From: Bacteroidia bacterium
GTDB lineage: Bacteria > Bacteroidota > Bacteroidia > J057
NCBI GenBank assembly: GCA_033391075.1
Contig: JAWPMV010000001.1
Span: 6,572,001-6,636,000, forward strand
Length of the DNA stretch: 64,000 nt
Direction: 5' to 3'
In this document: piece after piece, positions 7,580 through 41,923 of the stretch
Position numbering within the stretch: the first letter of the stretch is position 1
Layout of the letters: every line of letters starts with the position of its first letter
The notes under the pieces: generated by a model
Seen by the model: the letters and a program-made list of their open reading frames with translations, nothing else
Told to the model about the DNA's origin: nothing
Databases searched by the model: none
Translations under genes and position numbers: made by a program

Positions 7580-8683
7580 ATGTCCTCTACGAAAACTTCT
7601 CTTGCTCTGGTCTTCGGTGGTCAATCCCCCGAACACGAAGTATCTATACGCTCTGCACGCAATATTTTTGATGCTATTCCAACAGAAAAATACGATGTCG
7701 TATTGATTGGAGTAGATAAAGTGGGAGCCTGGAATCACATTGCAGAAGAAGAACTTCGAAAGGAAGATCTTGATTTAAAGAAAGCGGGCAAGCCTTTGGC
7801 AGTTGTTCCCGGAGCGAAGGAAAAGCAGATTATATACTTATCCACGGAAAATGGCACTTTTCCACAAATAGATGTAGTATTCCCGATTACCCATGGTCCT
7901 TATGGAGAAGATGGAACACTACAAGGTATATTTATGCATTTGGATCTGCCTTTTGTTGGACCTGGTGTACTCGGTTCTTCGGCAGCAATGGATAAGGATG
8001 TCTGCAAAAGACTTTTGAGAGATGCTGACCTGAAAGTAGCCGAATATGTTTGCTTTCAGTATTATGAAAAAGACGCCATTGACTACATCGGGGTGGTCAA
8101 TAAGCTTGGACTCCCGCTCTTCATTAAGCCCGCAAATATGGGGTCCTCTGTAGGTGTAAAAAAAGCTGAAAGTAAAGCTGAGTTTGATGCTGCTATTCAG
8201 GAAGCTTTCCGATATGACCATAAAGTGATTGTTGAAGAAGCGATAGTCGGGAGAGAGCTGGAGTGTGCAGTCATGGGAAATGCAGTAGTGGAAACTTCCC
8301 ATGTGGGAGAGGTTGCTGTTGATCCGGAAGCTGCAGGACTTTATGATTACGAGAGCAAATACATTTCAGCCACTGCGGCAGAAACCCTCATACCCGCACC
8401 CAATATCGATGATCAGACTCTGGCCAAGCTTCTCTTGGTTGCCAAGAATTCCTATCGAGTTGTAGGTTGCGAAGGGATGACCCGTGTCGATATGTTTCTG
8501 ACAGAAGAAGGCCATGTTTACGTAAATGAACTCAATACTCTTCCGGGTTTTACCAGCATCAGTATGTATCCTAAACTTTGGGAACATGCTGGAACTTCCT
8601 ATTCCGATCTGATCGATCACCTTATAGAATTGGCTTTGGAAAGAGGAGAACGAGATAAAAAGCTGGAGAAAAGTCTTTCTTAA
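7580..8683 (+). CDS. ddl: D-alanine--D-alanine ligase
   Basis: A 367-residue ATP-grasp ligase that joins two D-Ala molecules for the peptidoglycan stem peptide. The N-terminal FGGQSPEHEVSIRSA (residues 12-26) is the Ddl signature. HGPYGEDGTLQG near 110 and FVGPGVLGSSAAMDK near 127 are substrate-domain motifs. LPLFIKPANMGSSVGV near 180 is the ATP-grasp loop, and VNELNTLPGFTSISMYP near 318 holds the metal ligands and the C-terminal signature. The 367-residue length fits the longer (VanA-like length) Ddl branch. The ATG follows an AT-rich leader with DnaA-box-like repeats. IS110 copy 1 inserted 20-30 bp downstream of the stop codon, leaving the gene intact. Confidence 0.96.
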   Translation: MSSTKTSLALVFGGQSPEHEVSIRSARNIFDAIPTEKYDVVLIGVDKVGAWNHIAEEELRKEDLDLKKAGKPLAVVPGAKEKQIIYLSTENGTFPQIDVVFPITHGPYGEDGTLQGIFMHLDLPFVGPGVLGSSAAMDKDVCKRLLRDADLKVAEYVCFQYYEKDAIDYIGVVNKLGLPLFIKPANMGSSVGVKKAESKAEFDAAIQEAFRYDHKVIVEEAIVGRELECAVMGNAVVETSHVGEVAVDPEAAGLYDYESKYISATAAETLIPAPNIDDQTLAKLLLVAKNSYRVVGCEGMTRVDMFLTEEGHVYVNELNTLPGFTSISMYPKLWEHAGTSYSDLIDHLIELALERGERDKKLEKSLS

Positions 8684-8710
8684 TATTTTCTCTAAACAAA
8701 GCTGTCATCC

Positions 8711-8915
8711 TATACTTGCCTAAGAGCTAGGGAAGAAAAGAATTCTTAGTTTGTGGTATTTGAATAAGCAGCAAAAGGAGAGGGGATAAATCCGTTAAGT
8801 GTCATTGGTTTAAAAAACCGTCCGGGATGTTGGTTTCCCTCTCCCTCTGATCCAAAACTAGAACAGTACAGTAGGCTAAGAGCCAGAATGTAGGATTGAT
8901 AAGTTCGAATCAGAG
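8711..8915 (+). ncRNA. IS110 bridge RNA (target- and donor-binding loops)
   Basis: The region between the left end and the transposase folds into three parts. A 5' hairpin pairs CTAAGA (8720) with TCTTAG (8744). A target loop is closed by GGAGAGGG (8777) and CCCTCTCC (8837), with an inner GGTTT/AAACC hairpin. Its left guide UGUCAU (8800-8805) equals the target's left half, and its right guide CCGGGAUG (8822-8829) is complementary to CATCCCGG. A donor loop is closed by CTCTGAT (8845) and ATCAGAG (8909), with an inner GGCT/AGCC hairpin. Its guides are ACAGUACA (8863-8870), equal to the right end at 9908, and UGUAGGAU (8889-8896), pairing with ATCCTATA at 8707 with one G-T wobble. This is the two-loop plan known from IS621. 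The exact RNA ends are inferred. Confidence 0.85.
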
Positions 8916-8933
8916 CTGCTCAACTATAGGATT

Positions 8934-9899
8934 ATGGATAATAACGTATATGGAATCGACATTGCCAAAAAAAGCTTTGAAGTAGTCTGTCTTAATGATA
9001 GTGGGAAAAGCTGGGTAAAAAGCTATTCCAATACTGCTTCGGGCCATTGTAAATTTATCGAAGTCCTCTCTCAAGGAGATCTCTGTGTCATGGAAGCAAG
9101 TGGTCCCTATTATTTATCCCTGGCCTTTAGTTTACATCAGCATGGGATTAAACTAAGTGTAGTTAATCCCCTGGTCATTCGCCGCTACAGTCAGATGCAA
9201 TTAAGGCGAACCAAGACCGATCAGCAAGACGCGCGCTTAATTGCTCAATATGGACGGGATCACCGAAGCTTTATTAAGCTCTGGCAGCCTCCAGCGGCTA
9301 TTTTTCTCCGCTTACAGCAGTTTTTGACTAGCATTAACCTATTTCAAAAACAGCTCCAGATGCTTCGTAATCAGCTCGAGGCTATGGATCAAGTTCCTAT
9401 TGTGGATCCTTTGGTGAGAAGTCAGCAGCTTTATCTGATCGAACAGCTACAAGCTTCGATCAAGCGGCTGGAGCAACAGATGCTCAGCCTTAGTAAAGAG
9501 CATTGTTCACAAAGCTATCAGTCGCTTATGAGCATCCCAGGTATAGGACCTAAGACCGCTTGTTTGTTGATCTGTATTACCCATGACTTTAGCCGATTTG
9601 AGTCTGCCAAACAATTGGTCGCTTATTTGGGATTATGTCCTCGTATTTTCACATCGGGTAGCTCAGTAAAGGGAAAGGAGAGGATCGTAAAAATGGGGCA
9701 GGCCTTGGCAAGAAAGTATCTCTATATGGGAGCCTTTTCCGCGATGAAAGTAAATCCTCTTTGTCAATCTATGGTAGAAAACATGAAGCAAAAGGGTAAA
9801 CATCATAAAGTCATTAGAGTTGCGGTTGCTCATAAACTCTTAAGACAGGCTTTTGCTGTAGCTAAAAATAGAACTCAATTTAATCCCAATTTTATTTGA
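8934..9899 (+). CDS. IS110-family transposase (bridge-RNA-guided recombinase)
   Basis: A 321-residue recombinase. The N-terminal RuvC-like DEDD domain starts VYGIDIAKKSFEV (Asp9 as first acidic residue), has VMEASGPYY near residue 57 and RTKTDQQDARLIAQYG near 93-107 with the paired Asp residues. The C-terminal Tnp_20 domain carries LMSIPGIGPKTACLLI near 198 and LVAYLGLCPRIFTSGSSVKGKERI near 225, where the catalytic Ser is expected. It is complete and intact, so the element could be active. It differs from copy 2 at three residues (Leu/Pro in IKLWQ, Leu/Phe in QLEAMD, Ala/Thr in FSAMK). Confidence 0.95.
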   Translation: MDNNVYGIDIAKKSFEVVCLNDSGKSWVKSYSNTASGHCKFIEVLSQGDLCVMEASGPYYLSLAFSLHQHGIKLSVVNPLVIRRYSQMQLRRTKTDQQDARLIAQYGRDHRSFIKLWQPPAAIFLRLQQFLTSINLFQKQLQMLRNQLEAMDQVPIVDPLVRSQQLYLIEQLQASIKRLEQQMLSLSKEHCSQSYQSLMSIPGIGPKTACLLICITHDFSRFESAKQLVAYLGLCPRIFTSGSSVKGKERIVKMGQALARKYLYMGAFSAMKVNPLCQSMVENMKQKGKHHKVIRVAVAHKLLRQAFAVAKNRTQFNPNFI

Positions 9900-9914
9900 C
9901 TTTTACTACAGTAC

Positions 9915-10000
9915 ATCCCGGAATCTATGCAGATATCCGGGACCTCTAGCCAGTACCCATTTGCGAGAGATCCCGGCTCTTGTTTTAAGGCCGGGATGAC
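9915..10000. repeat. Dispersed host repeat, unit A (right part, split by IS110)
   Basis: If the IS is removed, TGTCATCC at 8703 joins CCGG at 9918, giving a repeat of about 93 bp that begins TGTCATCCCGG and ends CCGGGATGAC, an inverted pair of ends. Internal segments GATATCCGGGA, CTCTAGC and GAGATCCCGGCTCTT recur in unit B at 49581. It looks like a REP/MITE-type non-coding element. The right end still offers GTCATCCCGG on the minus strand. Confidence 0.8.
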
Positions 10001-10084
10001 TAGCTTTTAAGAGCTTCTTGTGATCATCTGCATTTAGTCCTCCATTTCGCCTCAGGAATCCCATATTTTTTGTAATTTCACCTT

Positions 10085-10702
10085 ATGGAATATCCTTCGA
10101 AAGCGATAGAAGAAGCTGTTAATGAATTGGCCAGCCTGCCGGGCGTAGGAAGGAAAACGGCATTGAGATTAGCCTTGCACATCCTCAAGCAAACGGAAAA
10201 CGATGCCGAACGCCTCGGAGGTTCAATTATCAACCTTCGCAAAAACATCAAATACTGCGAAAGTTGTCATAATATTTCGGACGATCCTCAATGCAAGATT
10301 TGCAAACATCCTCGTCGCAATAAGCAACTGCTTTGCGTGGTAGAAGATGCCAAGGACGTAATCGCTTTGGAGAGCACACACCAGTTTCAGGGAATTTATC
10401 ATGTCCTTGGAGGCCTGATAAATCCGCTGGCAGGTGTGGGGCCATCTATGTTGAACATAGATTCGCTGGTTTCCCGCATCAATGAAGGGGGAATTGCAGA
10501 AGTCATTCTGGCCTTCAGTGCAAATATTGAAGGAGATACCACCGCTTTTTATATCCAGAAGAAGCTGGCCAAAAGCGGAGTCAAAATTTCCAGTATCGCC
10601 AGAGGTATTCCAGTCGGGACAGATCTTGAATTTACAGACGAAGTTACCCTGGCACGATCTCTCATGAACAGAACCTTGCTCGCCGTACCTGGAGCTGAAT
10701 AG
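10085..10702 (+). CDS. recR: Recombination protein RecR
   Basis: A 205-residue protein of normal RecR length. RecR works with RecO and RecF to load RecA at gaps. The helix-hairpin-helix LASLPGVGRKTALRLALHIL (residues 16-35) binds DNA, the four-Cys zinc motif CESCHNISDDPQCKIC is at about 58-73, and the Toprim domain with LCVVEDAKDVIALE follows at about 83. The Walker-B-like region around FSANIEGDTTAFYI near 140 is typical. It is separated by 2 bp from the glycosyltransferase gene and is probably co-transcribed with it. Confidence 0.96.
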   Translation: MEYPSKAIEEAVNELASLPGVGRKTALRLALHILKQTENDAERLGGSIINLRKNIKYCESCHNISDDPQCKICKHPRRNKQLLCVVEDAKDVIALESTHQFQGIYHVLGGLINPLAGVGPSMLNIDSLVSRINEGGIAEVILAFSANIEGDTTAFYIQKKLAKSGVKISSIARGIPVGTDLEFTDEVTLARSLMNRTLLAVPGAE

Positions 10703-10704
10703 GT

Positions 10705-12681
10705 ATGTCCGATCTCTCTGTCATTATTGTCAATTACAATGTAAAGCACTTTCTCGAACAGTGCCTTCATTCTGTATTGAAAGCCAGTTCAAAGCTTTCA
10801 GTCGAAATTTTTGTCGTAGACAATAATTCAGTTGACGGCAGTCAGCAGATGCTTAAAGAGAAATTTGGCGAGCAGATTATCCTCATTGAGAATACCGATA
10901 ATCCCGGCTTTTCCAAAGCAAATAATCAGGCCATCAAGCAAGCGAAAGGAGAATACATACTTCTCCTCAATCCCGATACTATAGTCGAAGAAGAGACTTT
11001 CCTCAAATGCAAAGACTTCATGGACAGGCATCAGGAAGGGGGAGCATTGGGCGTAAAAATGATTGATGGTCAGGGTAAATTTTTGCCGGAATCAAAAAGA
11101 GCCCTTCCTACTCCCTGGGTTTCTTTCTACAAAATATTTGGCCTTTCCAGCTTTTTCCCCCGCCATAAAAAATTTGCTAAATACCACTTAGGTTATCTGG
11201 ATAAGGATGAAAACCACGAAATCGAAATACTTTCCGGAGCTTTTATGTGGATGCGTAAGTCTGCCCTGGATAAAACTGGTTATCTGGACGAGAGCTTTTT
11301 TATGTATGGAGAGGACATAGATCTTTCCTATCGCTTCATTCTCGAAGGCTATAAAAATTACTATTTCTCGGATACCCAGATCGTTCATTATAAAGGAGAG
11401 AGTACCAAAAAAGGAAGCCTCAATTATGTCAGGGTCTTTTATCAGGCCATGATCATTTTTGCCAAGAAACATTTTGGCGGGAATCAAAAGCGTTTATTCA
11501 TCAGTTCTATTAAAGTAGCGGTTTACCTGCGGGCTTTAATGGCTGTAGTGTACAGGCTTTACCAGCGACTGGCATTTCCCTTGCTTGAGGGGATCATGAT
11601 TTATGGAGCCATGTTTGGGGTTAAATCCTATTGGGAGCATTATGTAAAATTTCTGGAAGGGGGAAAGGATTATTATCCCGAGATTTTTTCCACGCTTTAC
11701 CTGCCGGTTTATACCCTGGTATTTGTGAGTTTCCTCTGGATAGCTGGCGCCTATAAAAAACCATTCAAGATAAAGCCGCTCATCATGGGCCCCTTGTGGG
11801 GATTCATTGCCATCGCTACCGCGACCTATATGTTTTCCGGCATCCTGAATTTTTCCCGGGCTATTGTTGGTCTATCCTCCATTTTTGCTATGCTCATCGC
11901 CATCGCCAATCGGGGCATCATCAATATGCGGGAGAAAGGGAGTTTCTTTTTCACGGAAGGCAAACAAAAACGAGTTTTGATTGCAGGGAAAAAAGGAGGA
12001 ATCGCCCGAGTTTCTTCTCTGATCAAAGGAGAATTGGATTATCCGGTAGAAATCGTGGGAGCAGTTGCGGAAAAATATCAGCCGGATTCAGAAACCGAAT
12101 TGCTCGGCAGCTTTCACCAATTGAAAGAGATCCTGCGATTCTACCAAATCGATGAAGTGATCTTTTGCAATGAAGATATGTCCACCCAACAAATTCTTGA
12201 TCTCATGGCGGAGATACAGGATGCAGATGTGGAGTATAAAATCGTACCACCGAAAGCTGATTATATCGTAGGCCCTCAAGTAATTCTGAACAGTCGTTAT
12301 AGCGAGCAGATTCATTATCGCCTTCAGGATCGGGAAGAGAAATTGAGAAAACGTGTATTTGATTTAGCGGCCAGTAGTCTCCTACTATTGAGCTTTCCGC
12401 TACTCTTCTGGTTATACGAACAGCCAGGCCGAGTCATCCGAAAACTCTGGGATGTCTTTGCGCATAAAAAGCACATCGTAGGATATATACATCCTGAAGA
12501 TTCTGACCTCCCCCGGATCAAACCCGGCCTACTAAATATGCTGGATAGGGTGAAGCCCATTTCTGATACAGGTCCGATGAATACCCATGGTCTGGATAAA
12601 TATTATGCCCAATCCTATAGTTGGGGAATGGACCTTGCTATCCTCTTAAAATCCTGGCGAAAAATAGGAACCTCCCTTTAG
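10705..12681 (+). CDS. GT2 glycosyltransferase fused to a degenerate sugar-phosphate transferase
   Basis: A 658-residue fusion. Residues 1-265 are a family 2 glycosyltransferase: SVIIVNYNVKHFLEQCL, VDNNSVDGS near 45, LLLNPDTIVEEE near 90 and GEDIDLSYR near 205. Three or four membrane segments follow (about 330-420). Residues 430-530 resemble the CoA_binding_3 part of polyprenyl-phosphate sugar transferases (KRVLIAGKKGGIARVSSLI, IDEVIFCNED). The last 100 residues look like a shortened bacterial sugar transferase domain (KRVFDLAASSLLLLSFPLLF, KLWDVFAHKKHIVGY, LPRIKPGLL, YSWGMDLAILLKSWRKIG), but the catalytic middle with its Asp-Glu pair is missing. It probably adds a sugar to a surface glycan at the inner membrane. 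Donor and acceptor unknown. Confidence 0.85.
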   Translation: MSDLSVIIVNYNVKHFLEQCLHSVLKASSKLSVEIFVVDNNSVDGSQQMLKEKFGEQIILIENTDNPGFSKANNQAIKQAKGEYILLLNPDTIVEEETFLKCKDFMDRHQEGGALGVKMIDGQGKFLPESKRALPTPWVSFYKIFGLSSFFPRHKKFAKYHLGYLDKDENHEIEILSGAFMWMRKSALDKTGYLDESFFMYGEDIDLSYRFILEGYKNYYFSDTQIVHYKGESTKKGSLNYVRVFYQAMIIFAKKHFGGNQKRLFISSIKVAVYLRALMAVVYRLYQRLAFPLLEGIMIYGAMFGVKSYWEHYVKFLEGGKDYYPEIFSTLYLPVYTLVFVSFLWIAGAYKKPFKIKPLIMGPLWGFIAIATATYMFSGILNFSRAIVGLSSIFAMLIAIANRGIINMREKGSFFFTEGKQKRVLIAGKKGGIARVSSLIKGELDYPVEIVGAVAEKYQPDSETELLGSFHQLKEILRFYQIDEVIFCNEDMSTQQILDLMAEIQDADVEYKIVPPKADYIVGPQVILNSRYSEQIHYRLQDREEKLRKRVFDLAASSLLLLSFPLLFWLYEQPGRVIRKLWDVFAHKKHIVGYIHPEDSDLPRIKPGLLNMLDRVKPISDTGPMNTHGLDKYYAQSYSWGMDLAILLKSWRKIGTSL

Positions 12682-33325: not shown

Positions 33326-35056
33326 ATGGAAAAATCCATCACAGCAAAGGCTCTCAGACAAAAATCCCGAGAGATTCAAGCCGATCAAATCAAGCACAAC
33401 ATGCGCATAGCCATCCTTGGCTATCGTTCCACCCAATTCCTCTCCAAATTCCTCATACAAGCCGGAGCTATTCAGGGCCTTGATATTGAGATTTATGAGG
33501 CTGATTATATACAGGTGGAAATGGAAGTGATGAATCCTGCTTCCCGACTCTATACCTTCAAGCCTGACTTCATTTGGATTATCAATTCCACCTACTTTTT
33601 ACAAAAGCTTTTTTATAAAAGTGCAGTAAAAAAGGACTTTGGAAAGGCAATTTCCCAGAAATATCAAGGCCTGGCTGAGCAGGTAAGGGCGCATAGTTCT
33701 GCACAATTAATCTTCAATAACTTCTTCGAAATTCCCGACAGCATTTACGGCCACTTTTCCAATAAAACTTCAATCTCATTTCTCAATCAGCTTAGAAGAA
33801 TAAATGTCTCCTTCATGGACCTGGCAGAATCCATCCAAGAGCTTCACCTCTTCGACTTGAATTCAATGATTCATACCAAAGGCCTGGATAGGGTTTTGGA
33901 TTCAGGCCTTCATATAAATGCAGACATTCCCTTTAGTATGGATTTCGAAGCAGAAATCGCCTGGGACTTTGCTTCTCTGCTCACGGTATTCAAAGGAGAG
34001 ATTAAAAAATGCCTCATCCTCGATTTGGACAATACGCTTTGGGGAGGCGTAATAGGGGATGATGGCTTGGAGGGTATTCAGATCGGAAGTTTAGGTATAG
34101 GAAAGGCTTTTACCGAATTACAAGGCTGGGCGAAAGCCTTAAAAGAACGGGGCATTATTCTAGCCATCTGTAGCAAGAATACAGAGGAGATCGCCAAAGA
34201 AGTATTTGAAAAACATGAGGAAATGATTCTGAGATTGGACGACATTGCAGTATTTGTAGCCAATTGGTCCAATAAAGCAGACAACATCCGACACATCCAG
34301 CAAGTCCTGAATATCGGCTTTGACTCTATGGTTTTTCTCGATGATAATCCGGCAGAGAGAGCATTGGTACAAAAAGAATTGCCAGAGGTAAGCGTTCCGG
34401 ATCTACCTCAAGATCCTGCAGAATATCTCCCCTTTCTCCGAAAACTCAGGCTTTTTGAAACCCTCTCTCTTTCCAGCCTGGATAAGGATCGCACTCGCCA
34501 ATATCAGGAAGAGGCCCAAAGGCGTTCGATGCAGTCCTCCTTTAGCAATATGGAGGACTACTTAATCTCCCTGAATATGAAAGGAAAAATCCTGCCTTTT
34601 CAGGATCAACATATAGCCCGCATTTCACAACTGAGTCAACGCTCCAATCAATTCAATCTGCGCACCATTCGATACACAGAAAGTGAGATCAAGTCCCTCC
34701 AGGAAAATTCTTTATACCTAGACTTTCAAGTTAGCCTGGAAGATACCTATGGGACATATGGATTGATTTCTATTGTCCTGCTTAAAAAAGAAAATTCGGA
34801 CCGCTTATTCATTGAGAACTGGCTGATGAGTTGTCGGGTTCTTAAGCGAGGGTTAGAAAAATTTGTACTCAATCATCTGCTGGAAAAAGCCAGAGAAATA
34901 GGAATAAAAAAGATTGTCGGGGAATACTTGCCCACGGCCAAAAACAAAATCGTTGAACATCATTATAAGGAATTGGGTTTTGAATCCCTGGGAAATAATC
35001 AATGGGAATTGGAGGTAGAAAACTACGAGGCAAAAACTCATTTCATCAACATTTAA
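33326..35056 (+). CDS. FkbH-like HAD-IIIC protein (glyceryl transfer)
   Basis: A 576-residue protein. Residues 1-220 resemble the SGNH-like N-terminal part of FkbH proteins. The HAD domain has LILDLDNTLWGGVIGDDG, with nucleophile Asp233 and partner Asp235, followed by ICSKNT near 288 and DDNPAERALV near 341. The last 130 residues resemble a GNAT domain (LIENWLMSCRVLKRGLEKFVL-type segment). FkbH enzymes load a glyceryl group from 1,3-bisphosphoglycerate onto an acyl carrier domain for polyketides or related products. A carrier domain is encoded by the convergent operon 330 bp away, making a functional link plausible but unproven. Confidence 0.88.
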   Translation: MEKSITAKALRQKSREIQADQIKHNMRIAILGYRSTQFLSKFLIQAGAIQGLDIEIYEADYIQVEMEVMNPASRLYTFKPDFIWIINSTYFLQKLFYKSAVKKDFGKAISQKYQGLAEQVRAHSSAQLIFNNFFEIPDSIYGHFSNKTSISFLNQLRRINVSFMDLAESIQELHLFDLNSMIHTKGLDRVLDSGLHINADIPFSMDFEAEIAWDFASLLTVFKGEIKKCLILDLDNTLWGGVIGDDGLEGIQIGSLGIGKAFTELQGWAKALKERGIILAICSKNTEEIAKEVFEKHEEMILRLDDIAVFVANWSNKADNIRHIQQVLNIGFDSMVFLDDNPAERALVQKELPEVSVPDLPQDPAEYLPFLRKLRLFETLSLSSLDKDRTRQYQEEAQRRSMQSSFSNMEDYLISLNMKGKILPFQDQHIARISQLSQRSNQFNLRTIRYTESEIKSLQENSLYLDFQVSLEDTYGTYGLISIVLLKKENSDRLFIENWLMSCRVLKRGLEKFVLNHLLEKAREIGIKKIVGEYLPTAKNKIVEHHYKELGFESLGNNQWELEVENYEAKTHFINI

Positions 35057-35073
35057 CTTATTTGAATGAAATG

Positions 35074-35353
35074 AAAACAAGATTCCTCGGCACACAGCCC
35101 AGTCCTCTCCCAAGCCTCGGAATGACAAAAACGGACCGCTCATCTCGAAGCTTGGCTGCGCGATGGACTGCGGCTGAGAGATCATGTATTATCTGTACGA
35201 ACCAAAAACAAGATTCCTCGGCACACAGCCCAGTCCTCTCCCAAGCCTCGGAATGACAAAAACGGACCGCTCATCTCGAAGCTTGGCTGCGCGATGGACT
35301 GCGGGCTGAGAGATCATGTATTATCTGTACGAACCAAAAACAAAATTCCGAGG
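35074..35353. repeat. Tandem direct repeat, about 131-bp unit, 2+ copies
   Basis: Two nearly identical copies lie head to tail; GATTCCTCGG recurs at 35081 and 35212. The second copy differs by one inserted G (GCGGGCTGAG versus GCGGCTGAG), and a third partial copy begins CAAAATTCCGAGG. Each unit contains an imperfect palindrome ATTCCTCGG ... CCTCGGAAT and a TCTCGAAGCTTGGCTGCG segment, so it belongs to the REP-like families of this genome. The interval between the FkbH-like gene and the sulfotransferase gene contains nothing else. Confidence 0.9.
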
Positions 35354-35389
35354 AAGATAGAATCACCGCGAGAATGAAAAAGACCTTCT

Positions 35390-36481
35390 TTAAGTATTGA
35401 CCAAAACCTCCTCCCGTTCATAGCCAAATTCCTCAAAGACAAATCCCATACGCTCATTGATCTCTCTTTTGATTTCAGGACTTAAAGGATCATAGCTATT
35501 CTGCCGATATGAAGTAATGGAATCCAGGTACTTAGAGATCGCTGATTCATTCATTTCTTCACCCAAAAAGGAATATATCTTCTTCAAATTTTCTAAGGGA
35601 GCACTCTTCAGTTCATCAAATCCCAGTACCATCAAATTTCCTTCAGGAATCAACTCCTTATCTCGCACCCAGGCACGATGCACTTCCTCATACATGTCCA
35701 GGACCAATTGATCCCTGCTACGTTTTAGTTCTTCTAAAGACTGAAAATTGACCATTTGAAACCAGGAGTCATATAAATGCATGCTGGATCGTATGGTTTC
35801 GTAAGGGTTTCGATGAATATGAATAAAACGAGCATCCGGATAGAGTTCCAGAAGCATGGGAATCCGAGCCGTATGGGCCGGAGATTTTAGCACCAAGGAC
35901 CGATGATCTCCTCTCAGTTTTTGAAATTTCTGCAGGAACCAACTATAATTTTTCTTCCACTTCTGCTTATCTCTTTCAGATGCTTTCTGAAAAGACACAT
36001 AGCTCCTGTATTGCTCTGCATCCCTGGGAAAATGAATCGCCAGATAAGAAGAAGGAGCCCCTAAAGAAGCCAGGGCAATTTCTTCCTCCTGCACACTCGC
36101 CATCACCATTTTCATTTGATCCATCAGACGTACGCCCGGCCCCATTTGATCAAGTATCGGAGCCAGCCATTTTTCCGCCATAAAGTTGTGAGGAAAAGCT
36201 GCCTGAAAAGTATTGGGTGAAAGAAAGCTGCCGTCTATATTCAGAAGATTGTGTAAGTGTGTAGTTCCACTCCTCCAATGTCCCAATATGTAAATGGGCT
36301 TTTTTATCTCTCCTTTATAGCTTCGAAATCTTTCAGGCAATCCTATCAGGGTATTTAAACAGGCCATGAAAAAATGCAGATAAATGTCAAGAATAGAAGC
36401 CAGTCTAAGCCTGAAACCTTGCTTTCTGAATAGGCGAAAGAAGGTGCTGAAATCCGCTCCATATAAAAAAGAAATTTTCAT
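35390..36481 (-). CDS. Sulfotransferase (PAPS-dependent)
   Basis: A 363-residue protein. The 5'-phosphosulfate-binding loop is GHWRSGTTHLHNLL (67-80), and the 3'-phosphate-binding segment is FIHIHRNPYETIRSSMHLY (about 219-237). LVLKSPAHTARIPMLLELYP near 197-216 is the conserved linker between them. The length and motifs fit the Sulfotransfer_3 group, which puts sulfate on hydroxyls of lipids, glycans or small molecules. It is the last gene of a five-gene operon, 5 bp after the condensation-carrier gene, so the acceptor is likely the product of that pathway. No PAPS synthesis gene is present in the window. Confidence 0.87.
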   Translation of the reverse strand: MKISFLYGADFSTFFRLFRKQGFRLRLASILDIYLHFFMACLNTLIGLPERFRSYKGEIKKPIYILGHWRSGTTHLHNLLNIDGSFLSPNTFQAAFPHNFMAEKWLAPILDQMGPGVRLMDQMKMVMASVQEEEIALASLGAPSSYLAIHFPRDAEQYRSYVSFQKASERDKQKWKKNYSWFLQKFQKLRGDHRSLVLKSPAHTARIPMLLELYPDARFIHIHRNPYETIRSSMHLYDSWFQMVNFQSLEELKRSRDQLVLDMYEEVHRAWVRDKELIPEGNLMVLGFDELKSAPLENLKKIYSFLGEEMNESAISKYLDSITSYRQNSYDPLSPEIKREINERMGFVFEEFGYEREEVLVNT

Positions 36482-36486
36482 GTGTC

Positions 36487-37920
36487 TTATTTTGATGAGC
36501 GAAAGGGCTCCATTATTTGGATCAGTTCACGAATATTCAAATCACCCCCCGTATTGAGTGCCTGACTTACAAAAGAGCTTTGAGGTTCCAATTGAAAATC
36601 ATCAGCCAATTCAGAGAGCATAGAAAGTAATTTGAGAGAATCTCCCCCCAGATTATGAAACTTTTCATCTGCATGAATGATCTCAGGCGGGCATGCTAAA
36701 ATATCAATCCAGAGTTTTTTCAGTTCTTCGAAATCTCCGCCATTTAATTCTCCATAAGTCTCTTCTCTTTTTTCCTCTTTCAAATCAAATGTCAAATGTT
36801 CCCGTATTTCTTCCTTAATTTTTTCTCCATCCAGATGTGCAGGAAAACTACAGCAGATCAGACTTCTCTCCTTTTGCAAAATGACATTGGTACAAAATGG
36901 AGCCAGGGGAATGAATACCGGAAGAGAAATAAGATGGGAAGCCTGGAAATTGGCGGTCTGATAGTCGGACAAGTCTATACTTCCATTATCTGAAAGGATC
37001 GCGCTCATGGGAAAGGATTTTAGTTTCCGTGCCTTGCGAATTCCCATTTTCATCAAGCTTTTCAGCAGGAATCCAGGGCTTGCGCTTGCCAGCTTTTCCC
37101 ATCGATCTATTCTCAATTCTTGCTTCTCATGCAAGGCTTGCAAAAGCATCGCCTGAACCTCCTGCCAACTCTGTTGAGGTTCAACCTGCAAATATATGGG
37201 CAAACTCAGGTTGGATGCAGCTTGTTTCGCTTCTTCATGCCTCCGTAAATCAACCGGAATCATGATGCGACTACCATCTCCAAACTTTTGCGCATACCAG
37301 ACTGCTACTTTCGCCAGAGGTGCTTCAATCTTTAGGGGAATATCTATCAATTGCGTTTGATAGTCAATCGGATTATCGGAAAGGAAGAAGCCTGGCCATT
37401 GGAATAAGTAGGAAGCTCGGGCTATTTCTCCATCTGCATCTAATTGCTCTCTTAAGGCTTCATCTGAATCAAATCCAGTATATATCTCAAGCGCTTCTTT
37501 TCTGAGCAGGGCAAAAAGAGCTTGAAGGATAATTTGAGCCCCTTTAGCATCGACTACACTATGATGAATTCGAAATAGAAGTTCTCTTTCGTCAAAAAGC
37601 TGAAACTCCATCAAGCTCCCCTTTAGATTCGGAAGTGTCTTCCTATAAATCTCATGATTCAAATCTTCTGGTGCCAGTTCATTATGTACAATTAGCTCGG
37701 GCAGTTCTCCCTCAAAAGACCAGTACTTGCCCCTCGATTGTATCCTCAACTGAGGGAGTATGTTTGCCAGCCTGGAAATTGCCTGCTCCAATTCCTTAGC
37801 TTCAATCTTTCCTTTTCCTTTAACCAAAAACTGTAAACAAAAAGAAGGAGCAACCTCCTGGCCAAGGGAATAGATATATTCATTGAAGGTCTTTTTCCGA
37901 CCTAAAGGCTTATTAGGCAT
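36487..37920 (-). CDS. Condensation/PapA-superfamily acyltransferase with C-terminal carrier domain
   Basis: A 477-residue two-domain protein. Residues 20-380 fit the chloramphenicol-acetyltransferase-like condensation superfamily: the active-site HHSVVDAKG (His119, His120, Asp124, Gly127) follows the HHxxxDxxG form, and IMIPVDLRRH near 218 and the LSLPVFIPLAP segment near 330 are typical structural motifs. Residues 400-470 are a peptidyl/acyl carrier domain with LGGDSLKLL, where Ser428 is the phosphopantetheine site. No adenylation or ketosynthase domain is present. Such proteins transfer acyl groups from or to carrier thioesters. It overlaps the alpha/beta-fold gene upstream by 8 bp, so translation is coupled. 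Confidence 0.83.
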   Translation of the reverse strand: MPNKPLGRKKTFNEYIYSLGQEVAPSFCLQFLVKGKGKIEAKELEQAISRLANILPQLRIQSRGKYWSFEGELPELIVHNELAPEDLNHEIYRKTLPNLKGSLMEFQLFDERELLFRIHHSVVDAKGAQIILQALFALLRKEALEIYTGFDSDEALREQLDADGEIARASYLFQWPGFFLSDNPIDYQTQLIDIPLKIEAPLAKVAVWYAQKFGDGSRIMIPVDLRRHEEAKQAASNLSLPIYLQVEPQQSWQEVQAMLLQALHEKQELRIDRWEKLASASPGFLLKSLMKMGIRKARKLKSFPMSAILSDNGSIDLSDYQTANFQASHLISLPVFIPLAPFCTNVILQKERSLICCSFPAHLDGEKIKEEIREHLTFDLKEEKREETYGELNGGDFEELKKLWIDILACPPEIIHADEKFHNLGGDSLKLLSMLSELADDFQLEPQSSFVSQALNTGGDLNIRELIQIMEPFRSSK

Positions 37921-38755
37921 AGATAAATTCGCTTACTTCCTGGTTAAAACGCTGGGGTTCCTCAGCCATCAGAAGATGGCCTGCTGCCGGATAAAAATAA
38001 CTGAGCTCTGGCCCTAGTTTGTCAATCAGACGTTTGCCTCTTTTCAATGGCAAGACCTGATTTTTCTCTCCCCAACAAACCATTGTCCGGGGAAGTTCTG
38101 CTTCCTTATCTTCAAAGTGGTCAAATTTATTAAAGCTATAGAGGCCTTTGATCAACATGATGCGAGACTGGGCCTGCATAGGATGTGTAATACCTGCCAA
38201 TATTCGCTGAAAAATCTCATTTCTGCTTTCCGGTTTTCTTCCATAGAGTCTGCTGACCACCTTTTTTCGGACGAAAGCAAATTTGGAAACGAGAAACATC
38301 AAAGCATACAACTGCTCATCAAAGGTATTCCCATTGGGAGTAAACATATAGGGATGAAAGTATTGCATCATCGAAGCTCCTCCGCAAATGTTGCAGAGAA
38401 TCTGGGCTTCTACTTTCTCCGGTTGTTGTAAACTATATTCCAGACAAATAGCGGCTCCTATGCAATTGCCCATGAGAATAGGATTTTCGAGCCCCTGATC
38501 ATCAATAAATCGAGCCAAAGCATCCACATATAAATCAAGGGTAAATGGGATTCGAGGTCTGGAAGAATCTCCAAAACCTATCAGGTCAAAGGCGATTACC
38601 TGATGATTCTTCGAAAATTTTTCGATCTGGTTTTTCCAGATTATATGGCTGCAACCACCATTGTGAAGCATGATCATTGCTTGCCCCTCGCCTGACTCAT
38701 GATAAGCCATTTCCATTCCCTCATATTCATATGTTCGATTGGTATGTATCAACAT
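37913..38755 (-). CDS. Alpha/beta-hydrolase-fold protein with Cys nucleophile
   Basis: A 280-residue alpha/beta-fold protein. The oxyanion-hole region is IMLHNGGCSHIIW (28-40), and FDLIGFGDSSRP (56-67) is typical of the fold. The nucleophile elbow is MGNCIG, with Cys98 where Ser is usual. The acid loop reads WGEKNQVLP with Asn232 in place of the common Asp, while the catalytic His260 (AAGHLL) is present. A Cys elbow occurs in dienelactone hydrolases and PHA synthases, where it carries an acyl thioester, so an acyltransferase role is as likely as hydrolysis. It is 17 bp downstream of the desaturase gene within the operon. Confidence 0.85.
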   Translation of the reverse strand: MLIHTNRTYEYEGMEMAYHESGEGQAMIMLHNGGCSHIIWKNQIEKFSKNHQVIAFDLIGFGDSSRPRIPFTLDLYVDALARFIDDQGLENPILMGNCIGAAICLEYSLQQPEKVEAQILCNICGGASMMQYFHPYMFTPNGNTFDEQLYALMFLVSKFAFVRKKVVSRLYGRKPESRNEIFQRILAGITHPMQAQSRIMLIKGLYSFNKFDHFEDKEAELPRTMVCWGEKNQVLPLKRGKRLIDKLGPELSYFYPAAGHLLMAEEPQRFNQEVSEFIYA

Positions 38756-38772
38756 ATTTATTCTTTCTTATG

Positions 38773-39897
38773 CTAGGCAAACTTTATTGTTTTGGGCTCA
38801 TGTTCTGGCCTTTTTCCCATTTTTCTAAGATGCTCGTAATGGGCGGAAATAGCTTTGCCAAAACTCTCATATTCAAAATAGGGAATCCCAAATTCCTCGG
38901 CGGTTTGCTTTACGATGGGAGCAAGTTGGGGATAATGTACATGGCTGATTCCTGGAAATAGGTGATGTTCAATCTGATGGTTCAAACCGCCCGTCAACCA
39001 ATGGGCAATGGTAGATCCCGGAGCCCAATTCGCGGTTGTATACAGTTGATGAACGAACCAGTTGTTTTCGATATTCCCATCTTCATCAGGTAGCGGCATT
39101 TCTGATACCTCAGTCAAATGCGCCAACTGAAATACCAAAGTTAGCGCAATTCCCGCAACCAAATGCAGAAAGGCAAAGCCAAAAAGGATTTTCCAAAGCG
39201 GCAAATCAAGAAGCAGAATAGGAATTCCCAGCCAGAAAAACCAAACCCCTATTTTGATCAAAGCCATCTTGATCCAGTTTTTTTCCGGTTTATCTGCATT
39301 TTTTCTAATCAGATTGAGTTTACTGAACTTATACAGTTTCATAAAATCAGTCAGGAACATCCAGGTAAGGGTAAGTAGGCTATATAGTAAAAATGCATAA
39401 TACTGCTGAAAACGATGCTTGGGCTTCCACTCCATCTCCTCAGAAAATCGTAACAAACCGGCGCCTGATTCCAGGTCTATATCATGCTCTGGAATATTGG
39501 TATAGGCATGATGCAGTTCATTGTGGCCTACAAGCCAGATAAGTTTATCTCCCCCTAGCAGATACATACTATTTGCAGCCCATTTATTCATCCAGGGTTT
39601 AGAAGAAAACGTGCCGTGGCAGCCTTCATGCATGATGGAGCTTCCTGCAAGGAAAAACCCAAATCCTATCACTCCACAAAGAACTAGCATCATCCCCTCA
39701 CTCATTTCTACAGTAAGAATCAGGAAATAGGGGAGAAGCCAAATGAGAAGAATCGGAATTGATTTCCGCATCAAGGGAGTATCTCCTTTTCGGGAGAGAT
39801 TGTTCTCCTTGAAATATGCATGGATACGCGACTTCAAGGTCTGCGTAAAATCCTGGTTTGCACTTCGGGTATAATTGATATTAGGATTCTTTTTCAT
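38773..39897 (-). CDS. Membrane fatty-acid desaturase (three His-box type)
   Basis: A 374-residue integral membrane di-iron enzyme. The three histidine boxes are HEGCH (90-94), HNELHH (125-130) and QIEHH (308-312 in LNHQIEHHLFPGISHVHY). A Gln in the last box is characteristic of front-end (delta-5/delta-6-like) desaturases and related acyl-lipid enzymes. Four to six membrane segments are visible. It introduces a double bond into an acyl chain, here probably that of the operon's product. Its start overlaps the end of the MMPL gene by 17 bp. The regioselectivity cannot be told from sequence. Confidence 0.93.
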   Translation of the reverse strand: MKKNPNINYTRSANQDFTQTLKSRIHAYFKENNLSRKGDTPLMRKSIPILLIWLLPYFLILTVEMSEGMMLVLCGVIGFGFFLAGSSIMHEGCHGTFSSKPWMNKWAANSMYLLGGDKLIWLVGHNELHHAYTNIPEHDIDLESGAGLLRFSEEMEWKPKHRFQQYYAFLLYSLLTLTWMFLTDFMKLYKFSKLNLIRKNADKPEKNWIKMALIKIGVWFFWLGIPILLLDLPLWKILFGFAFLHLVAGIALTLVFQLAHLTEVSEMPLPDEDGNIENNWFVHQLYTTANWAPGSTIAHWLTGGLNHQIEHHLFPGISHVHYPQLAPIVKQTAEEFGIPYFEYESFGKAISAHYEHLRKMGKRPEHEPKTIKFA

Positions 39898-41923
39898 GTA
39901 AATTCAAAGACTTTTTCCGGATCATAGCTAACAAGGCCGGAAGGATGAATATGTCAGAAAGGAAGGCAAAAAAACAGCCGATCACCATAGAGAGGCCCAA
40001 TACACTCACCGCTTCCAAACCGGAGAAAATGAGCACAGAGAAACTCAAGCCAAAGACCAGGCTAGTCATCAGAATCGGTTTTGCCGCATCTCTGATAACA
40101 GGATCAAAAGAAGAAGACGAAGATTTATGTTTCTGATAGCTAGCGAGGATATGCATAGTATCATCGATAGCTATCCCAAAGGCAATGGTAAATACGATAC
40201 TGGTTCCGGCCCTCAACTCAATTCCCATTAATCCATAAACCGAAGCAAGGATCAATAGCGGGATGGTATTCACCAGAATAGAGATAGCAGCTTCAGGCAG
40301 AGCTTTAAAATATATCGCCAGTAAAATGAAGGTTATGGATAAAGCCGTGCACAACCCCAGGGCAATCGATCGGGTGATATCATCGGTGTTTTTATCCATC
40401 ATTCGAGCCTGGCCCGTTTGTCGGATATGAAGTTTATCAAACAAAGGATTGCTACTAAGTATCTGCTTCAATTTATCATAGCGTTCTACCGCTTCTTTAC
40501 TCCCTATATCCCTCATCAGGCCATAAAAGCGAAAATATTTTCCATCTTCAGACATGAGTTTAAGGTAAGCATCTTCCCCCCTTTTAGGACCTACCAAAAA
40601 TCTTGTGCCCATATAACTTTTGATAAGGCTATCGAGCTTTTGCAATACCATCGGAGCGGGCAATTCTTCTGAGCCTGTGTTCTCAATCAGAATAGAGAGA
40701 GGGCGTATACCTGCAAAATTCTGGTCAAAGTGTAAAGCTTCCTGGCGGATTGAGGAGTCTATAGAAACCCCCTGTATCATATAGGAATTCTTCCTCAGCT
40801 TGCTTATTCCGCTTATCGTAATCAGAATAAAGCAGGAAATTATGCCCCAAAGTATCCACTTGTTTTGGTAATTCTCTTGAATCCAGCTATGCATCTTCTC
40901 CAGAAGTCTATCAACAGCCTTCCTGCTTTTATACTTCTCAGGGGAAATGCCGGAAAATAAAAGTAGGCTAAAGCAAAAGGTGTACATGACTCCCACTGCC
41001 ACAAATCCTCCAAATTCCATAATGGAGGAAATCTCCGTAGTAATCAAACTTCCAAAACCAATCGCTGTGGTAATACTTGTTAGTAACAAGGCAGGAAAAT
41101 GGTATTTCACCCTTCCCAGACTATCCCAGGGTCCGGCTCCTTTCACAATATGAATGATATCCGAAACCGATATAATCAGAATTAGGGTTGGAATCAGGGT
41201 GGTGAACAGGTTTATATGAAAGCCTAATCTTCCCATCAATCCCATTGTAAACAGGATGGAAAAAAAGGGAACGGACAAACTGAGTAACAGAATTCTTATC
41301 GAACCCAGGATCGCATACAAGATGAGAAGAATGAGGAGAAAGCATAGGAGAAAAAGGAAACCAGAATTCTCCTTCATAAATTCTTCCAGGGAACGGGTCA
41401 AATAAACCTTACCTGCCAGACGAATCTGTTCTGGTGGAAAGGACTTCAATTGCTCCTTGATTTCCCCTAAAAAGTCATCCATCGCTTCTTTCTCGATAAA
41501 CTCCTTATGCAGAATAAGGAAAGAAGCCAATCGATGGTCTTCACTTACAAATAGGTTACGGCCTTCTATCTTTTCGACAAATCTCTTCCTGACGCGAAGA
41601 CCTGCCGGAGTCCAGTCATCAATCCAAAATACTTCTTCTACTTCCTCCAGCATACGTAGTCCCTCTTTGACTTCTTTCAATTTGTCAAGAAAGTTCTTGT
41701 CATAAATGCTGGAATCTGATCGAAAGGAAACGAGAAGAAATTGATCATCATGGCCAAAGATTTCCCGATACTTCAGATAAATGCTTAGCTCATCTCCACT
41801 TGCTGAAAAGTAATCATCCATATTGTGGGAAATGCGAAGCTCTGCCAATCCGGGAGCTAGTAGTGCACTCGCCAGAACCATCAAAAACAGGATCACTTTT
41901 CTATATGCAAGAAGGTACTTCAT
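39881..41923 (-). CDS. MMPL/RND-family lipid transporter
   Basis: A 680-residue transporter. It has an N-terminal helix, a periplasmic domain (about 30-190), five or six helices with ILIISVSDIIHI near 250, a second helix-loop half from about 350, and a final helix set with FTIAFGIAIDDTMHILASY near 595. The IAIDDTMHI motif with paired Asp is the proton-relay signature of MMPL/RND proteins. MMPL proteins export lipids such as mycobacterial glycolipids. First gene of the operon; its ATG follows an intergenic region of about 280 bp shared with the divergent oxidoreductase, where the promoter must lie. Confidence 0.9.
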   Translation of the reverse strand: MKYLLAYRKVILFLMVLASALLAPGLAELRISHNMDDYFSASGDELSIYLKYREIFGHDDQFLLVSFRSDSSIYDKNFLDKLKEVKEGLRMLEEVEEVFWIDDWTPAGLRVRKRFVEKIEGRNLFVSEDHRLASFLILHKEFIEKEAMDDFLGEIKEQLKSFPPEQIRLAGKVYLTRSLEEFMKENSGFLFLLCFLLILLILYAILGSIRILLLSLSVPFFSILFTMGLMGRLGFHINLFTTLIPTLILIISVSDIIHIVKGAGPWDSLGRVKYHFPALLLTSITTAIGFGSLITTEISSIMEFGGFVAVGVMYTFCFSLLLFSGISPEKYKSRKAVDRLLEKMHSWIQENYQNKWILWGIISCFILITISGISKLRKNSYMIQGVSIDSSIRQEALHFDQNFAGIRPLSILIENTGSEELPAPMVLQKLDSLIKSYMGTRFLVGPKRGEDAYLKLMSEDGKYFRFYGLMRDIGSKEAVERYDKLKQILSSNPLFDKLHIRQTGQARMMDKNTDDITRSIALGLCTALSITFILLAIYFKALPEAAISILVNTIPLLILASVYGLMGIELRAGTSIVFTIAFGIAIDDTMHILASYQKHKSSSSSFDPVIRDAAKPILMTSLVFGLSFSVLIFSGLEAVSVLGLSMVIGCFFAFLSDIFILPALLAMIRKKSLNLHEKES

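Follow-up and report, generated by a model that had tools for sequence, protein, structure and literature searches.

In the biosynthesis of lipstatin, LstE and LstF add and formylate leucine, and the sulfotransferase of the sulfolipid-1 pathway is Stf0, which has a Pfam family of its own. Lipstatin assembly has been described as having an LstA/LstB and OleA/C/D basis (PMC7064751), and the sulfolipid-1 locus as combining acyltransferases and Chp1 with the MmpL8 exporter for the sulfated lipid (PMC6463170). The formation of glyceryl-ACP by FkbH and an acyl carrier protein (ACP) is the role assigned to FkbH in tetronate and methoxymalonate pathways (PMC7489565). Here we analysed a window of 64,000 nucleotides, by which we mean the whole stretch of DNA at positions 6,572,001 to 6,636,000 of contig JAWPMV010000001.1 of a Bacteroidia bacterium (assembly GCA_033391075.1; genome G000 below). 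It carries a five-gene operon encoding an MMPL exporter, a desaturase (DES), an alpha/beta-hydrolase with a predicted Cys nucleophile (ABH), a condensation/carrier fusion protein that we label CPCP, and a sulfotransferase (ST), with an FkbH gene converging on it. We read the window as a tailoring and export module whose scaffold module lies elsewhere in the genome, a reading to which we assign a probability of roughly 45%.

With the lipstatin-type clusters of Streptomyces and Rhodococcus, this system shares a beta-ketoacyl-ACP synthase III (KAS III), an OleD-like reductase, an adenylating ligase, an MMPL exporter (in two Rhodococcus records) and the homology of CPCP to the N-terminal acyltransferase and the carrier of their nonribosomal peptide synthetase (NRPS). 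It differs from them in that FkbH replaces the adenylation domain and the sulfotransferase replaces the formyltransferase, of which none was found in the loci. Moreover, its ligase is of the TIGR02304 and not the OleC type, it has one KAS instead of two, its MMPL lacks significant similarity to theirs, and it contains an extra Cys-hydrolase and a desaturase. OleABCD likewise offers a KAS III-fold condensing enzyme, an OleD-like short-chain dehydrogenase/reductase (SDR; OleD is the best model here), an F390 synthetase-related ligase and an alpha/beta-hydrolase distantly resembling haloalkane dehalogenases, but our system has the TIGR02304 ligase subfamily, a Cys-His-Asn hydrolase, tailoring enzymes and, in the relative G557, a KAS nearest to MxnB/CorB. 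In our view the system is a variation on Ole/lipstatin-type lipid assembly that resembles the lipstatin pathway more than sulfolipid-1, but it belongs to none of the lipstatin, Ole and sulfolipid-1 systems proper.

The remaining parallels are more partial. Like the sulfolipid-1 locus, the cluster contains an MMPL exporter (PF03176 here), but it has another sulfotransferase family, a carrier-bound donor and FkbH, and no polyketide synthase or trehalose chemistry was seen; polyketide synthases were absent from the eight window proteins covered by the Pfam scan and from the scaffold block. The glycerate-utilisation operons of tetronate pathways share FkbH and a carrier (TIGR01686 over cut-off; PP-binding in CPCP) as well as a FabH-like KAS, whereas here the carrier is fused to an acyltransferase, a sulfotransferase stands in for the acetyltransferase, and a lipid exporter and desaturase are present. 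Termination by CurM and olefin synthase (OLS) also has a sulfotransferase and a chain-releasing hydrolase act together on a chain bound to a carrier, but the enzymes here are free-standing and the ST is closer to 2z6v and 2zq5. Among the open-licence papers listed by our searches, none describes this system as far as titles and the starts of abstracts show.

Recurrence of the window genes in relatives

CPCP, ST and the Cys-hydrolase were found together in two other genera, the relatives with the cluster being G004 and G009. All five operon genes recur in G009, across three contigs. Over the 13 genomes of the family, all five occur in two, and ABH, CPCP, ST and FkbH occur in three. The joint occurrence that the original prediction expected of its five genes thus takes the form of a set that is rare but goes together when present.

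The predicted set of five is incomplete, missing both FkbH and the KAS III/OleD block described below. Strong FkbH matches among 22 genomes (13 of the family and nine of the order) occur only in G000, G004 and G009, the same three that carry CPCP, ST and ABH. None of the 19 others has one, a single weak match being found in G014 (9.2e-4); the probability of such a split (3/3 versus 0/19) arising by chance is 0.00065 if relatedness is ignored. This co-occurrence, together with the adjacency of FkbH to ST in G009, makes FkbH a fairly well supported sixth member, and we grade membership of the set as a whole in the same way. The window FkbH matches TIGR01686 over cut-off (4.2e-93), and its sole solved-structure match is 3slr (BF1531). 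The carrier of CPCP has to be loaded by an enzyme that the five operon genes do not seem to provide. FkbH was the one candidate for this that we recognised nearby, and this, with its assigned role in forming glyceryl-ACP, is the mainstay of our argument. A neighbouring Gfo/Idh/MocA gene, which by eye also adjoins FkbH in G004, was considered as a further member and rejected, as none was seen beside the G009 genes.

The gene order in G009 connects the window-type set with the scaffold block, a quartet of KAS III, SDR, metallo-beta-lactamase-like (MBL) and TIGR02304 ligase genes. Contig C67 carries SDR, MBL, ligase, KAS and the 5' part of MMPL; contig C902 continues with the 3' part of MMPL and DES, followed by ABH on the opposite strand and the first part of CPCP running off the contig end; and contig C722 holds the second part of CPCP and ST, with FkbH convergent and overlapping ST by 34 bp. 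The stop of KAS overlaps the start of MMPL by 4 bp, as does the stop of CPCP the start of ST. The contig breaks fall inside the MMPL and CPCP genes, and from the complementary fragments we infer the ten-gene order SDR-MBL-ligase-KAS-MMPL-DES-(ABH)-CPCP-ST-(FkbH). G009 thus shares the order MMPL-DES-ABH-CPCP-ST-FkbH with the window, although ABH is turned round there, as it is in G004. In G004, contig C1196 carries ABH on the opposite strand, CPCP and ST, and then an unrelated permease-like gene.

Individually, the genes discriminate to different degrees. CPCP was matched in four of 100 relatives at E<=0.001, counting G000 itself and a weak 53-residue match in G003, and in one of the 395 genomes sampled from the phylum, G000 again. 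A single-sequence CPCP scan of the genome collection returned nothing, though its contig L045 encodes a 46% relative, so this result is no proof of absence. The Cys-ABH profile matched five of the 13 family genomes at 1e-30, with scores over 500 bits in three and of nearly 170 in G007 and G005; it also matched four of the 395 genomes of the class sample at 1e-40 (G000, G004, G007 and G557) and two loci in a collection of 84,980 genomes. The G009 counterpart of MMPL, split over two contigs, is 41-42% identical, and all other matches in the five genomes searched, G000 paralogues included, reach at most 35%. Desaturase relatives are present in 13/13 family genomes, so the desaturase alone is weak evidence; that of G009 is 49% identical and in the same place, while the best in 11 others reach 33-41%. 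APS kinase, which would supply 3'-phosphoadenosine 5'-phosphosulfate (PAPS), is likewise found in 13/13 and is not discriminating.

Within the window, the five open reading frames lie on the minus strand at the positions originally predicted (Table 1), with the expected overlaps (17 and 8 bp) and gaps (17 and 5 bp). The families proposed for them agree with Pfam matches, except that the condensation label falls below cut-off (0.0017). MMPL also matches TIGR00921 (HAE3; 3.6e-29), far under the model cut-off, and the HxxxH, HxxHH and QIEHH boxes can be read in the desaturase. The spacing points to transcription as one unit, as had been claimed; this would hold only locally, because both relatives have the hydrolase gene on the other strand and the co-directional layout is not conserved. 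Just upstream of MMPL there is no match to TTG-N17-24-TAnnTTTG, which we take to be a Bacteroidota-type promoter pattern. With a guanine-plus-cytosine content of 41.4-42.3%, where the whole window has 42.3%, the six genes are not flagged as foreign by their composition. An Rfam scan gave a single tRNA and nothing else. The stretch between FkbH and ST contains a direct repeat (35060-35340) whose copies are 131 bp apart.

Table 1. Coordinates of the window features and of the scaffold block
Feature	Position	Strand	Description
FkbH-type putative glyceryl-loading enzyme	33326-35056	+	576 aa; convergent with operon; FkbH_N 3.2e-34
Intergenic stretch FkbH/ST	35057-35389	.	333 bp; holds direct repeat
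Predicted PAPS-dependent sulfotransferase (Sulfotransfer_3)	35390-36481	-	363 aa; PF13469 3.3e-31
CPCP, LstE-type acyltransferase (condensation-like) + phosphopantetheine carrier	36487-37920	-	477 aa
Alpha/beta-hydrolase	37913-38755	-	280 aa; Abhydrolase_1 1.2e-19; predicted Cys98-His260-Asn232 triad
Membrane fatty-acid desaturase	38773-39897	-	374 aa; PF00487 FA_desaturase 1.5e-37
MMPL/RND-type exporter	39881-41923	-	680 aa; first operon gene; PF03176 1.4e-24
Scaffold block	G000:C1:2710056-2714192		KAS III, OleD-like reductase, lactonase-like MBL hydrolase, TIGR02304 adenylate ligase

The fusion protein CPCP and its lipstatin-type relatives

CPCP comprises an acyltransferase domain (approximately residues 8-372) and a carrier domain (Pfam match at 399-449; PP-binding, 5.1e-9), with a Condensation match of just 0.0017, under the curated cut-off. 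A tblastn search of plasmids with CPCP gave 23 records, all from Rhodococcus or Streptomyces; among the ten matches listed, seven are annotated as NRPS or adenylation proteins and three are unannotated. We opened six of the 23 records and found OleA/C/D neighbours in three, the other three having none. The cluster of Rhodococcus sp. H-CA8f starts with KAS and KAS-like genes and continues with an OleC-type ligase, a small open reading frame, an OleD-like SDR, the NRPS, a formyltransferase and MMPL. R. qingshengii and Streptomyces sp. NBC_01343 have similar gene tables, the latter without an MMPL in the stretch. We take these actinobacterial clusters to be lipstatin-type and their genes to be lstA-F.

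CPCP aligns with the N-terminal domain of the Rhodococcus NRPS at 29% identity over 377 aa (8e-37; the reference is lipstatin-like, not LstE itself), and its carrier aligns with the carrier of that NRPS at 35% over 43 aa. No adenylation (AMP-binding) domain was detected in CPCP by the domain scan, and none lies between the parts of CPCP that match the NRPS N-terminal domain and carrier. The H, D and G of HxxxDxxG and the motif PVDLRR are invariant over seven LstE-type family sequences. Judged from these alignments, CPCP is a shortened relative of the NRPS of lipstatin-type (OleA/C/D) clusters that lacks the adenylation domain. The PapA-type acyltransferase of the sulfolipid parallel is accordingly replaced by an LstE-type one, an assignment made with no PapA sequence compared. 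In the Streptomyces angustmyceticus plasmid p1 (L183, 6914-11370), an NRPS with an LstE-type domain lies about 650 bp from an annotated ST.

We base the condensation label of the first domain on its homology to the NRPS, together with the motif. With EntF there was no BLAST match at 1e-3, and hhalign of the CPCP profiles against the EntF condensation domain was not significant, with the HxxxD motifs aligned and an unrelated ST profile, used as control, at 0.42. A PDB profile search with the LstE-type family reached PvdL at just 0.04, and the Pfam matches in its seven members are single and weak (Condensation 0.0009, WS_DGAT 0.0046). The domain could instead be a wax-ester-synthase-like member of the same superfamily.

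The scaffold block and its tailoring genes

A search with the ligase found it in six of 14 genomes (G000, G004, G007, G009, G012 and G557), with the four genes together at all six. Within the family, each of the three genomes that carry the window set has the block, compared with two of the ten others (hypergeometric 0.035). The best NCBIfam model for the G000 SDR is OleD (2.6e-64), on which the Rhodococcus SDR scores 209 bits. The G000 ligase matches TIGR02304 over cut-off (434 bits), with no OleC model among its matches. The MBL protein is nearest to acyl-homoserine lactonases, and the KAS is FabH-like (NCBIfam); that of G557 has MxnB/CorB (4v2p, 4yuc) as its nearest PDB entries. We know of no product assigned to such a block.

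In the class sample, also of 395 genomes, 12 contain the ligase, ten of them above 500 bits. We read these ten loci together with those of G009 and G012, leaving out G067 and G034 (about 169 bits); the loci of G004 (5.5 kb) and G012 (9.8 kb) are short contigs on which neighbours may be missed. In all 12 blocks, a single KAS was tagged. An ST lies in four of the 12 loci (G007, G009, G557 and G687), a Cys-ABH in three (G007, G009 and G557), and an FA_hydroxylase-type gene adjoins the block in four (G000, G687, G637 and G682). The ST next to the block and Cys-ABH in G007 and G557 is of the PF13469 family. Beside the G687 block with its own ST (L165, 6226-15471) are genes with PAPS_reduct, GTP_EFTU and APS_kinase domains, which we read as probable CysD, CysN and CysC.

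On plasmids, we opened ten of the 81 ligase-matching records, whose gene tables are incomplete; that of Pseudomonas sp. Leaf58, for example, has only MBL and ligase annotated. Three of the ten (Ketogulonicigenium vulgare and two Paracoccus) have an annotated ST alongside the block, across a TetR gene, and in one Paracoccus plasmid sulfate transporter genes of the ABC type are also close by. A sulfotransferase, and with it the sulfation foreseen by the original prediction, thus accompanies the wider pathway in part of the cases. Four ST-free blocks (L163, L173, L176 and L177) contain ATP-grasp (4/4), GNAT (3/4) and Rieske (2/4) genes, which suggests alternative head-group chemistry. Overall, the block appears to be a scaffold whose tailoring can be swapped, sulfation being one variant.

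Proposed pathway and competing explanations

In the two-module reading, the desaturase would supply an unsaturated acyl chain. From their family membership, the KAS III would fuse acyl chains and the OleD-like reductase would yield a 2-alkyl-3-hydroxy acid, whose carboxylate the TIGR02304 ligase would activate, perhaps giving a lactone. FkbH would take glycerate from 1,3-bisphosphoglycerate and load the carrier domain of CPCP with it, the LstE-type domain would transfer the glyceryl group onto a lipid hydroxyl, and the sulfotransferase would add a sulfate where lipstatin has its formyl cap. The lipstatin NRPS performs a comparable transfer with leucine. The Cys-His-Asn hydrolase might serve as an acyltransferase, an editing thioesterase or a lactone-opening enzyme, and MMPL would export the product. 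What carries this reading is the protein families and motifs, the co-occurrence, the G009 gene order and the LstE-type homology, from which we infer the reactions, the glyceryl load of the carrier and a sulfated glycerate ester as the product.

We tentatively propose, as a possibility that we hold to be the less likely outcome, a new exported lipid class of Bacteroidota: head-to-head fused fatty acids (2-alkyl-3-hydroxy acids or beta-lactones) with an FkbH-derived glycerate ester and a sulfate cap, made by a lipstatin-like machine in which an NRPS minus its adenylation domain is rewired to a glycolytic intermediate. If this is true, FkbH has taken over the supply of an NRPS-type esterification, providing glycerate where an amino acid would otherwise be used, and the widespread KAS III/OleD-like/MBL/TIGR02304 block becomes linked to lipid head-group chemistry including sulfation. 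The reading yields a concrete, testable product class.

Several observations weigh against this reading. In G000 the scaffold block lies 3.9 Mb from the window, and the contiguity of block and window-type set in G009 is reconstructed across contig breaks. The G000 SDR scores 217.7 bits against an OleD cut-off of 580, and the block KAS is just 24% identical to that of Rhodococcus (8e-8). The Rhodococcus formyltransferase, OleC-type ligase and second KAS found nothing by tblastn (E<=1) in the window and the G000, G009 and G004 loci, and the window MMPL has no significant similarity to the Rhodococcus MMPL. For the CPCP first domain, Pfam supports a condensation fold only through PF00668 (0.0009-0.0017) in one of seven domain-family members, and the AlphaFold models are too poor to use (mean predicted local distance difference test score of 37.6 for CPCP and 49.9 for ABH). 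In G004, an assembly of 1670 contigs, FkbH is on a different contig, and the search for orthologs of MMPL and DES gave none, the best matches being 31% and 40% identical. Eight of the 12 Bacteroidia loci and seven of the ten plasmid loci have the block without an ST. The window ST shares just 22-27% identity with those of G007, G557 and G687 and has no match at 1e-3 in the three from plasmids; sulfotransferases were thus probably recruited more than once. Finally, FkbH can serve other pathways, because a second FkbH in G000, 52% identical, has as neighbours a methyltransferase and what by eye is a free carrier protein.

That second locus (L057, G000:C1:4745000-4764000; 8016-11103) is, by eye, upstream of a glycosyltransferase-like gene, and it possibly serves methylglyceryl decoration of a surface polysaccharide.

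The sulfotransferase itself has the patterns GHWRxGTTH and HRxPYxxIRS in 3/3 orthologs, presumably PAPS-binding motifs. Its Pfam matches at E<=0.01 are only PF13469, PF00685 and PF17784; the Stf0 type of the sulfolipid-1 locus, with which the original prediction drew its parallel, was not matched among the scanned proteins, the family being PF13469 instead. The nearest PDB entries are 2z6v (6.6e-10) and 2zq5, which we take to be the mycobacterial Rv3529c and Rv2267c. Stf3 is described as sulfating menaquinone (PMC7404182). The Cys nucleophile of the hydrolase, for its part, is borne out by the GNCIG motif in six of six aligned sequences (window and five relatives), in all of which Cys98, Asn232 and His260 are conserved. 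The nearest solved structures are meta-cleavage-product hydrolases; in 1j1i and 1iun, the positions aligned with the predicted triad are those usually occupied by Ser, His and Asp. The Asn position reads Asp in both, and the nucleophile position of 1iun reads Ala, so that 1iun may be a mutant structure.

These two enzymes are central to a first alternative, in which sulfation is a leaving-group step and not a decoration, and the exported lipid is unsaturated and non-sulfated. Here ST would sulfate the beta-hydroxyl or a glyceryl hydroxyl and the Cys-hydrolase would release the chain with sulfate loss, on the model of terminal-alkene formation by CurM/OLS or, by analogy, of the acetylation-elimination of tetronate pathways. 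ST and Cys-ABH do occur together in two cluster layouts (the window type, and that of G007 and G557), CurM/OLS is described as coupling an ST with a thioesterase for sulfation, hydrolysis and decarboxylation (PMC3903477), and glycerate-utilisation operons are described as combining FkbH, ACP, a FabH-like enzyme, an acyltransferase and a dehydratase (PMC7489565). However, the window ST matches 4gox with just E=0.16, far behind 2z6v, and, within the stretches read, ST is found without Cys-ABH in G687 (tblastn), Ketogulonicigenium and two Paracoccus (incomplete gene tables). We take 4gox to be the structure of the CurM ST domain, and consider the leaving-group route unlikely.

A self-contained, sulfolipid-1-like operon beside which FkbH and the block would stand by chance, as originally envisaged, seems distinctly improbable. 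The combination of MMPL, acyltransferase, hydrolase and ST does parallel sulfolipid-1 as described (PMC6463170), at best in function, and the block is unlinked in G000. Against this stand the ten-gene order of G009 pieced together over three contigs, the FkbH distribution, the LstE-type homology of the acyltransferase and a carrier for which the five genes offer no loading enzyme. What survives of the sulfolipid proposal is a coherent, rare, lipid-type gene set with ST motifs, an RND/MMPL exporter and a desaturase; its assignment to the sulfolipid-1 kind does not. Least probable of all is that FkbH-derived glycerate feeds KAS III to give a lipid tetronate or butenolide instead of a glycerate ester, the CPCP carrier only presenting the glyceryl group: taken together, the two modules do contain FkbH, a carrier, a FabH-like KAS III and an enzyme of the alpha/beta fold, and FabH-like enzymes are described as using glyceryl-ACP in tetronate formation (PMC7489565), but the same block occurs in G007 and G012, both without an FkbH match, and the conserved HxxxDxxG domain of LstE type would be left idle.

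Relatives of the window ST also occur in other Bacteroidia families. Leaving aside G000, G004 and G009, we read 13 loci whose matches score at least some 130 bits, and among the weaker ones only that of G007. The open-reading-frame set of one of the 13, L138, omitted the ST itself. A DUF5686 gene adjoins the PF13469 relative in eight of the 13 (L079, L080, L081, L084, L085, L137, L138 and L140), a conserved neighbourhood that we do not know from the literature. An HHxxxD-type acyltransferase lies within about 3 kb of the ST relative in five of the 13. By hhalign, their match to the LstE-type family spans 320 columns (E 4.1e-5, probability 70%) and that to the CPCP alignment alone is weaker, at 0.003 (probability 10%); the pairing of an ST with a related acyltransferase may thus be wider than the window operon. 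Some of these loci also carry CrtI-like or halogenase-like flavoenzymes.

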